NCBI GenBank assembly: GCA_036169595.1
Contig: CM069770.1
Location: 2,100,001-2,164,000, forward strand
DNA length: 64,000 bases
Source of the DNA: Dictyostelium firmibasis
Lineage: Eukaryota; Evosea; Eumycetozoa; Dictyosteliales; Dictyosteliaceae
Direction: 5' to 3'
Shown: one piece after another, positions 20,881 to 22,723 of the stretch
How positions within the stretch are numbered: position 1 is the stretch's first letter
Layout: the number at the start of each line of letters is the position of its first letter
Position numbers and translations under genes: made by a program
Notes under the pieces: model-generated
Databases searched by the model: none
The model's input: the letters and a program-made list of their open reading frames with translations, nothing else
Told to the model about the DNA's origin: nothing

Positions 20881-21561
20881 TTTTTTATATAAAATCGAAA
20901 CAAAAATTTCAAATAGAATATTATCATTTTCCCTAGTGTTATTATTTCAGAATTTATAATAAAATAATTTCATTGATTTAAAACCAGTAAAAATGAATAT
21001 CATTTAAATACTTTTATTTTTTTTAATAATCATTTTCGAAATTTTTTTTTTTTTTAAAATAGTCTTTTATTGATTAAAGTTTATTATTTTTTTCAAACCA
21101 AAAAATATTTAACATTGCGTAAAGGGCAATGGTATTGGGAAAAAAAAATAAATATAAAAAAAAATTGTTTAACAACCCCTGCAGCCTTTGTATTCCTATC
21201 AGAAACTTTTGTGTTTGAAATAAAACATATTAAGTTTTTCAAGATTTCAAAAATTAAAAATTTCAATAATAATACTATAGTTATTAATTAATTTTTTATT
21301 TCAAGATGTATTCAAAAAAATATGAAATTACTCTTATTATCAACAATATAAATGAAAACCCAAACTCTAACATCTTCTGGTCAGTTATTATTGTTTATAC
21401 TATTTAATTATTTTATAATTTTTTTATCATCTCTCTTTCCACTTTCAATTGTTTAAAACCTACTGATGAAATTTTTTTTTTTTTTAATAACCTCATCCAA
21501 TTGGATGTGTTCGAATCATGTTTTTATTTATTAATTATTTTATTTTAAAATTTTTTTATGT
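20881..21561. other. Spacer with a 33-residue open frame
   Basis: A short ATG frame at 21306-21407 (MYSKKYEITLIINNINENP...) ends in TAA and has normal codons. It could be a tiny gene or an exon remnant, but support is weak. The rest is A/T-rich. Confidence 0.4.
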
Positions 21562-21652
21562 GACCACGTTAATTCGTGGTATGACCAAGACTTGAACCAA
21601 GTCCATGGAGGATGTGTTATTCTGTGTGAAACCACTAAGCTAAGCCCCCACG
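21562..21652 (-). repeat. tRNA-like SINE-like element, copy A
   Basis: Read on the minus strand it holds a pol III box A (TAGCTTAGTGG, 21642-21632), a box B-like GGTTCAAGTC (21598-21589), and then a hairpin tail CCACG-AATTAA-CGTGG (21579-21564). It aligns over its whole length with copies B and C on the other strand, with small indels before box B. A full cloverleaf is not convincing, so it is tRNA-derived or tRNA-like rather than a working tRNA. Confidence 0.6.
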
Positions 21653-21695
21653 ACTGATGAAAAATAAAGATATAAAATTTAAAAATTCATCAACC

Positions 21696-21768
21696 GGTTT
21701 TATAGTGTAATTGGTTAGCACCCAGGACTTTGAATCCTGTAATCTGAGTTCGAGTCTCAGTAGAACCA
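21696..21768 (+). tRNA. tRNA-Gln (anticodon UUG)
   Basis: 73 bases without intron. The acceptor stem GGTTTTA pairs with TAGAACC, and the discriminator is A. Box A region is TAGTGTAATTGG. The anticodon arm is CAGGA-CTTTGAA-TCCTG with TTG at 21730-21732. The T arm contains GTTCGAGTC. A T-run (ATTTTTT) follows directly as pol III terminator. Gln-UUG reads CAA, the codon used for nearly all the poly-Gln tracts in this window. Confidence 0.93.
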
Positions 21769-21798
21769 TTTTTTAACAAAAATCAATATATAGTCGCT

Positions 21799-21809
21799 GG
21801 TTCGACTCC
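21799..21809 (+). promoter_or_regulatory. External B box downstream of tRNA-Gln
   Basis: GGTTCGACTCC, a perfect box B consensus, lies 30 bases beyond the tRNA end with no box A of its own. Many Dictyostelium tRNA genes are known to carry such an extra downstream B box. It could instead be the 3' remnant of a broken tRNA, since ...CCTGAAACCA follows. Confidence 0.6.
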
Positions 21810-21852
21810 CGTTCCTGAAACCACAAAGCAAGTTTTTAACATAGGGGTTCCA

Positions 21853-21951
21853 GGGGGGGCTTAGCGTAGTGGTTCCACACTGAATCACAAACCTCCGTGG
21901 CCAAGACCTTAGGTTCGAGTCTTGGTCATATCGCTAAGTAACGTGGTCATA
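21853..21951 (+). repeat. tRNA-like SINE-like element, copy B
   Basis: Box A TAGCGTAGTGG (21862-21872), box B GGTTCGAGTC (21912-21921) and tail AAGTAACGTGGTCATA. It matches copies A and C across the same length. The tail hairpin is damaged here (TCGC in place of CCACG). Confidence 0.6.
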
Positions 21952-21967
21952 ATTATACCCTCATTAT

Positions 21968-22060
21968 TGGAGGCTATACGTAGTGGTTCTGCGCTGAATC
22001 ACACAGTCTCCGTGTCCTTGGTTCGAGCCTTAGGTCATACCACGAAGTAACGTGGTCATA
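21968..22060 (+). repeat. tRNA-like SINE-like element, copy C
   Basis: Box A-like TATACGTAGTGG (21975-21986), box B GGTTCGAGCC (22020-22029) and an intact tail hairpin CCACG-AAGTAA-CGTGG (22040-22055), then TCATA. It is in direct orientation to copy B and inverted to copy A. Confidence 0.6.
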
Positions 22061-22723
22061 AATAACACACCTCGTAATCAACCGATAAAAAGCTCGACTT
22101 CCAAAAAACAACTACAAAAAAAAAAACATGGTGATTAGAAATTCTAATCCCAATAATATTAAAAAAAAAAAAAAAAAAAAAATTTTCTTTTGATACAATA
22201 TAGAATGGGTGATTTTTTTTATTTTGGTTGTTTCTGTTTAAATGATAATTAAAAAAGCATTTAAAAACATTTAAATCAATCATCGATTTTTTAATATTTT
22301 TTTTAAATAAATTTTGTCATAAATACCAGTTTTTTTACTAGCAAAAAAAAGAAAAATAATAATGTTTCAACCATATTAAAAACATCCATATAATAATACC
22401 AATATTGTTAACCCACAAAAACAAAAAACAAAAAAAAAAAAAAAAATGGGTGTATCCTTAAAATTATATTTCAATTTATTTTGTAAGGTTTATTATTTAA
22501 ACTTCTTTTTTAAGCAAAACTTACTTTTATTACAAAAAATTGATCCTTTTATTTTAAAATAAAATAAATTGAAATATATTTTTTTTGAAATTTGTTCTTT
22601 TATATTTTAAAAAATTAATTTTTTTTTATTTTTTATATTATTTATTATTATTTAAAAAATTATTATTTAAACTTAATTAATAATTTTATTATTATTATTC
22701 TCACTATTATTTTTTAAAATTTT

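Follow-up and report, generated by a model that had tools for sequence, protein, structure and literature searches.

The repeats on either side of a tRNA-Gln gene in Dictyostelium firmibasis very probably belong to two related families of LINE-mobilised SINEs, S5 and S3, which have the same head and different tails and sit on opposite sides of tRNA genes. In this species it is the best explanation of what was observed, namely copy number, ends, target-site duplications (TSDs), side, distance, orientation and the identity of the S5 tail. In the literature searched, no earlier description of a dictyostelid SINE was found aside from an unnamed RepeatMasker count, and S5 and S3 thus appear to be the first such families on record, although Glockner et al. 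2001 may mention one. The count, 88 "SINEs" listed for D. discoideum in RepeatMasker default mode, with no family named in the excerpt of the source (PMC4683709), is not taken as a description of S5 and S3. The published transposon annotation of D. firmibasis relied on tblastx and on references from D. discoideum (PMC11193728, in excerpt), so these families would not be expected to show in it.

The window, the whole stretch of 64,000 nucleotides that was analyzed, contains two insertions around tRNA-Gln (TTG), the only tRNA detected in it by ARAGORN and Rfam. The features are listed by position, with strand in brackets.

21462..21471 (no strand): S5 TSD ACTGATGAAA, distal copy, exact 10-nt match with 21653-21662
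21472..21652 (-): S5, monomeric SINE insertion, 43 bp upstream of tRNA-Gln, opposite orientation, with TSD
21472..21485 (-): S5 A-tail, 14 T on the + strand (sequence)
21486..21517 (-): S5 3' end GATTCGAACACATCCAATTGGATGAGGTTATT, common to the 3' end of a TRE5-like LINE by sequence comparison
21494-21507 (-): palindrome CATCCAATTGGATG within the S5 3' end (sequence)
21561..21650 (-): S5 head module, with box A 21632-21642, box B GGTTCAAGTC 21589-21598 and hairpin 21564-21579
21653..21662 (no strand): S5 TSD, tRNA-proximal copy, 10 nt, exact match with 21462-21471
21696..21768 (+): tRNA-Gln (TTG), the target gene (ARAGORN; Rfam RF00005, 67.4 bits)
21799..21809 (+): external B box GGTTCGACTCC, downstream of the tRNA gene (sequence; compare PMC5911963, in excerpt)
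21854..22182 (+): S3, dimeric SINE insertion, 85 bp downstream of tRNA-Gln, same orientation
21854..21951 (+): S3 module 1, with box A 21862-21872 and box B GGTTCGAGTC 21912-21921; its third hairpin is decayed here
21969..22060 (+): S3 module 2, with a degenerate box A, box B GGTTCGAGCC 22020-22029 and hairpin 22040-22055
22061..22160 (+): S3 3' region, with terminal hairpin GATTAGAAATTCTAATC 22133-22149, then CCAATAATATT 22150-22160
22161..22182 (+): S3 A-tail, 22 A (sequence)

The original prediction had described three copies of a single family here, one inverted and two direct, between 21562 and 22060. The repeated segments are real: the inverted-repeat arms, 21561-21598 with 21912-21949 (87%), 21615-21649 with 21855-21889 (89%) and 21554-21586 with 22033-22065 (88%), are 87-89% alike, the direct copies start at 21855/21969 and 21924/22033, and the pieces recur genome-wide, with no hits for reversed-pattern controls. 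The limits were drawn too tightly, since S5 reaches 21472 with its A-tail and S3 reaches 22182 with its 3' hairpin and A-tail. The count changes as well: the two direct modules form one dimeric element, hence one monomer and one dimer from two insertions, and these represent two families, with different tails and different tRNA sides. Both tails consist of a hairpin, a short spacer and poly(A), and their sequences differ. Over the features in the window, ORFs of 30 aa or more measure 31, 42, 43, 44, 45 and 75 aa, the 75-aa ORF running out of S3, so that S5 and S3 have no coding capacity by these window ORFs, as is the case for SINEs. We rejected the idea that they are TRE5 or TRE3 elements proper, which have ORF1 and an ORF2 with APE-RT, as S5 and S3 lack these ORFs and measure only about 178 and 330 bp. 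A plasmid collection gave no match.

To evaluate abundance, we searched the D. firmibasis assembly (12 contigs, 31,455,843 bases), in which the window lies on contig C6. With up to three mismatches, the S5 tail pattern was found at 239 places (LINE copies included), the last 30 nt of the S3 tail at 137 and the head pattern at 279, and each reversed pattern at none, positions being listed for the first 100 places per pattern; the further genomic copies that the original prediction implied are therefore present. Similarity queries, with 40 candidates scored in each case, gave at least 43 near-full matches to S3, at 91-95% to the window copy, at least 83 to S5, pieces included, and at least 177 to the whole region with its tRNA. 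A catalogue was made of loci chosen by similarity to the repeats, seven of which (L002-L008) came from the query that included the tRNA. Overlapping loci were merged, and 66 of the 68 were kept, L001 and L039 being dropped as duplicates of the window. The catalogue holds 56 S3 copies, 79 S5 copies and 55 tRNA genes, the last counted only inside fetched loci. S5 copies are about 178 bp long with one module and S3 copies about 330 bp with two; 38/56 S3 and 53/79 S5 copies keep both ends. The catalogue and the tail patterns thus show numerous dispersed copies whose 5' and 3' ends are fixed, as for SINEs in general. Mean pairwise divergence among full-length copies is 1.7% in S3 (38 copies) and 3.8% in S5 (52 copies), and by this low divergence the full-length copies of both families are young. 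Of the 38 S3 copies, the one in the window has diverged most, at 4.9% from the majority sequence, and the window S5 copy differs from its own by 4.3%. No support was found in tandem arrays for the farther copy being the more diverged (8 versus 6 for S5, 1 versus 2 for S3).

The modules of both families, each about 90 nt long, are clearly related, with family-majority identities of 91% between the S5 head and S3 module 1, 86% between S5 and module 2 and 93% between modules 1 and 2. In the S5 module, box A lies at position 8 and box B at position 52. Of the motifs that the original prediction had assigned to every segment, box B is indeed in all three, whereas box A of the type TAGCNTAGTGG occurs in the S5 module and in S3 module 1 and is replaced in the second direct module by the degenerate TATACGTAGTGG. 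Likewise, the common module tail TAACGTGGTCATA is exact in the two direct modules and reads TAACGTGGTCACA in the inverted one. The CCACG/CGTGG hairpin is intact in two, as described (21564-21579 on the reverse strand and 22040-22055 on the forward strand).

Box A and box B could also mean that S5 and S3 are tRNA pseudogenes or decayed tRNA genes, and S5 does match tRNA-Trp over 16 nt in register, with a score of 32 against at most 26 in 200 shuffles (35 tRNA sequences compared). S3 modules 1 and 2, compared to the same 35 sequences, gave no score above their shuffles. A tRNA-model search up to E=5 found no match at the copies in the window and in four other loci, only the neighbouring tRNA genes being matched, and the predicted fold of the three module types has three hairpins instead of a cloverleaf; the copies also have tails and TSDs. 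We therefore rejected tRNA pseudogenes, an explanation that is barely conceivable, and retain a dispersed element with box A and B motifs, in agreement with the original prediction. RNAalifold on 40 of 61 distinct modules gave 21 pairs with weak covariation, with one two-sided change, in 2/40 sequences. No match to 7SL/SRP was found in Rfam for the window copies. The run TTTT is found in 0/38 S3 copies, compared to 51% of mononucleotide shuffles, which would suit a pol III transcript. It is found in 20/52 S5 copies (shuffles, 47%), so there is no avoidance in S5, and this does not favour pol III transcription of S5.

The position of the copies relative to tRNA genes is strict in the 66 catalogued loci. 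Among the copies at up to 1 kb from a tRNA gene, 64/69 S5 copies lie upstream in opposite orientation (3 upstream/same, 2 downstream/same), and 49/51 S3 copies lie downstream in the same orientation (2 upstream/same). For ten S5 and five S3 copies, the fetched loci contain no tRNA gene at up to 1 kb. By simple arithmetic from the 379 tRNA genes in 31.5 Mb given for this genome (excerpt of PMC11193728), about 2-3% of random places would be expected to fall that close to a tRNA gene. Distances were taken from the copy nearest each tRNA flank and counted if its 5' end was intact. For S5 (31 copies) the median is 50 bp, with 21/31 at 44-54 bp and 4/31 beyond 100 bp; for S3 (34 copies) it is 93.5 bp, with 22/34 at up to 150 bp and 12/34 beyond, up to 325 bp. 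The published windows are about 44-54 bp upstream, opposite, for TRE5 and 40-150 bp downstream, same orientation, for TRE3, for which external B boxes are described as a landmark (PMC5911963, in excerpt). Sides and orientations of S5 and S3 match those of TRE5 and TRE3 as given there, and distances largely match (PMC5911963, in excerpt). The tRNA-targeted integration suggested by the original prediction is supported by these strict sides and orientations. At 15 places in the catalogue, S5 and S3 heads point towards one another with a tRNA gene between them, within 400 bp, which is also the arrangement of the window.

Two pairs of diverging S5 copies with no tRNA gene between them were also seen (L036:2471/2520 and L045:2643/2690), with heads 48 and 46 bp apart. 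An exact genome-wide pattern for such pairs was found at one place, and at none with control spacing. The TSDs of these insertions fall in the CATCCAATTGGATG palindrome of S5 tails, and consequently distance and site are confounded in them.

TSDs accompany both families, as they do SINEs. TSD-like matches of at least 9 nt flank 25/36 testable S3 and 31/47 S5 copies, against 17/1744 (S3) and 102/2308 (S5) when the flanks of different copies are paired, although some of the S5 matches are T- or A-rich and for that reason weak evidence. In the window, S5 has its 10-nt TSD and the S3 copy has no visible one. In the catalogue, 15/79 S5 and 8/56 S3 copies retain the 3' end alone, and 5/79 and 6/56, respectively, retain the 5' end alone, which gives an excess of 5' truncation in S5 and no clear one in S3. 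A further 28 loci were picked by eye, mostly as matches to the S3 tail that had no listed head close by or that lay near a LINE reverse transcriptase (RT) match; these keep the S3 3' end by selection, and the reading of the remaining S3-tail places among the 137 covered those situated in other loci. Among the 28, L102 has a listed head and some copies are full length (for example L080, L082 and L097). S3 is cut in this set anywhere at its 5' side, from about 50 nt to full length, and several remnants sit within the A-tails of LINEs. TSDs, truncated pieces and A-tails are together the traces left by target-primed reverse transcription. Tandem or segmental duplication of tRNA loci might have spread the repeats without retrotransposition, as copies are strongly tRNA-linked and often in tandem. 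However, many of them have their own TSD and A-tail and the target tRNAs are of many types, so that we rejected this very improbable alternative in favour of retrotransposed SINEs.

We then compared the tails to the LINEs of the same genome. RT-positive ORFs were sampled by length, giving six TRE types by their ORF2 (1244, 1229, 1195, 1163, 1159 and 1146 aa); two further RT matches considered as TRE partners turned out to be LTR elements and were rejected. The 1159-aa TRE type ends after ORF2 in CTAATAAACAAGATTCGAACACATCCAATTGGATGAGGTTATT(A)n, and its last 32 nt are the S5 3' end. Of 41 matches, 2 were read as RT-positive copies of this type and 9 more as diverged ORF2 ends. The S5 tail is present behind ORF2 in both listed RT-positive copies and is recognisable, if sometimes decayed, in 8/9 diverged ends, L115 being without it. 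The 5' ends of the two RT-positive copies lie 49 bp from tRNA-Ile and 47 bp from tRNA-Glu, in each case upstream of the gene and in opposite orientation, and the TSDs of these copies, ATTATCTTTTAAG and ATATCTAAA, were read close behind the tail. S5 therefore has the 3' tail in common with a partner LINE that is characteristic of SINEs, and on sequence comparison its 3' end is that of a TRE5-like LINE.

In S3 the tail gives a different picture, as it was found at the 3' end of none of the six TRE types read, and its helper is thus a putative one. Some SINEs have only the A-tail in common with their LINE. The last 11 nt of S3 match the 1229/1244-aa TRE type at 9/11 positions and the other types at 3-6; for comparison, among 981 11-mers before A-runs in the studied loci, a redundant set unsorted by origin, 18 reach a score of 9 or 10 and 89 a score of 11. 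The 1229/1244-aa type also seems, by eye, to have a hairpin before its last 11 nt, as S3 has, and the sole 1229-type copy with its 5' flank read has the same sense as tRNA-Leu and is placed downstream of it. The place of S3 and its last 11 nt are a hint of a TRE3-A-like partner. Alternatively, S3 may have no dedicated TRE3-type helper and be moved by the protein of the TRE5-like LINE, or of any LINE that takes poly(A) RNA, its downstream place being due to selection. The absence of the S3 tail from the six TRE types would agree with this, as would the ability of L1-clade LINEs to take poly(A) RNA. But S3 is as strict as S5 in side and orientation (49/51), and opposite sides and orientations make a single common machinery hardly likely, so we consider this alternative unlikely and prefer a TRE3-type helper.

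The likeness to TRE elements raises another possibility, that S5 and S3 arose from TRE LINEs by internal deletion and are non-autonomous copies of pol II type. A precedent is known in TRE5-A.2, a non-autonomous TRE5-A variant without ORF2 (PMC5633606, in excerpt), and a third short repeat, S-X (see below), runs on in L003 into a coding-like stretch, translated by eye only. However, blastn (E up to 1e-5) of S5 and S3 against the 5' regions of the LINEs in L129, L130 and L131 matched only separate S3 copies beyond tRNA genes, the S5 head has its box A and box B, and the same head is found with two different tails, all of which makes this origin quite improbable and argues for SINEs with a pol III-type head.

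We infer from these data that pol III transcription, movement in trans, a partner LINE for S3 and a role for the tail are part of how the two families spread. Pol III would transcribe the element, a TRE LINE would supply the reverse transcriptase that takes the SINE RNA by its tail, and target-primed reverse transcription would copy this RNA at the integration site of that LINE. S5 would use the TRE5-like LINE with the same 3' end and insert in opposite orientation, about 50 bp upstream of tRNA genes. S3 would most likely use a TRE3-type LINE and land about 50-230 bp downstream in the same orientation. With heads 86-93% identical and opposite sides, it is probably the LINE machinery, brought in by the tail, and not the head that determines the landing side. 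We lean towards a stronger version, in which one pol III module was captured twice by LINEs of opposite side preference and the tail alone decides the landing side. If so, S5 and S3 would be a natural tail-swap experiment, in which the tail chooses the LINE protein and hence upstream-opposite or downstream-same insertion, and the diverging S5 pairs would hint that S5 heads can be pol III targets in their own right. Among TRE elements, TRE5-A alone has had its targeting studied in some detail, and different mechanisms are assumed for TRE5 and TRE3 (PMC5006619, in excerpt). Similar heads with different tails on opposite sides separate the promoter of the element from the machinery that copies it, and offer substrates of only about 180 and 330 bp for direct tests of targeting.

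Among known systems, TRE5 and TRE3 non-LTR retrotransposons resemble S5 and S3 in side, distance and orientation at tRNA genes, in TSD and in A-tail, and the TRE5-like element has the 3' end in common with S5, whereas S5 and S3 are far shorter, have no long ORF and begin with box A/B heads. TRE5-A.2 is, like S5, non-autonomous with TRE5 targeting, and is mobilised in trans (PMC5633606, in excerpt), but it is a shortened LINE and S5 and S3 are box A/B elements. SINEs generally combine a pol III-type head with a 3' part matching a partner LINE (PMC7245038, in excerpt). S5 has this structure in common with tRNA-type SINEs with LINE-derived tails; unlike these, S5 and S3 target tRNA genes precisely, have one head on opposite sides and a predicted three-hairpin head. 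Alu is a dimeric SINE, and S3 resembles Alu-type SINEs in its head-to-tail dimer, short linker and A-tail; unlike them, the window copies of S5 and S3 are without the 7SL/SRP match. H3R and DGLT-A solo LTRs are also short repeats adjoining tRNA genes, on their upstream side (PMC5006619, in excerpt); a DGLT-A solo LTR lies about 15 bp from the gene and has no A-tail. Compared by description, they differ from S5 and S3, which end in poly(A), S3 moreover lying downstream of the gene; a solo-LTR origin was rejected on the A-tails and the other tRNA distances, by which the families are set apart.

The third short repeat, S-X (L069:596-826, L042, L044, L061 and others), has at least 48 matches, most listed copies being 94-100% identical, and ends in CTTGAATAGGT(A)n. 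Twelve copies were seen in catalogue loci: 6 have the same sense as a tRNA gene and lie 96-127 bp downstream of it, 2 are at 633-668 bp and 4 are elsewhere. TSDs were seen by eye in L042 and L044. As its start continues into the coding-like stretch in L003, S-X may be a deleted TRE3 derivative. In L011:1490-1500, a single telomere-like unit, GGGGAGAGACA, lies at the junction of two tandem S3 copies, which may be chance because S3 itself starts with a G-run.

Some features of the LINEs themselves were also apparent. The 5' region of the TRE5-like 1159-aa LINE contains tandem 182-bp repeats (L129:1058-1604, L130:867-1395), which recall the promoter monomers of some mammalian L1. A copy of this LINE on contig C2 (L104, C2:1362560-1363900) has, in the part of ORF2 read, a 2-bp gap relative to the C5 copy that breaks the frame. 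A long CAACAG/CAACAA-type tract lies behind the A-tail of a 1195-aa TRE (L071:200-700), followed by an ending in CTAATCATAGGT(A)n, and the same ending is seen behind the 1146-aa TRE type.
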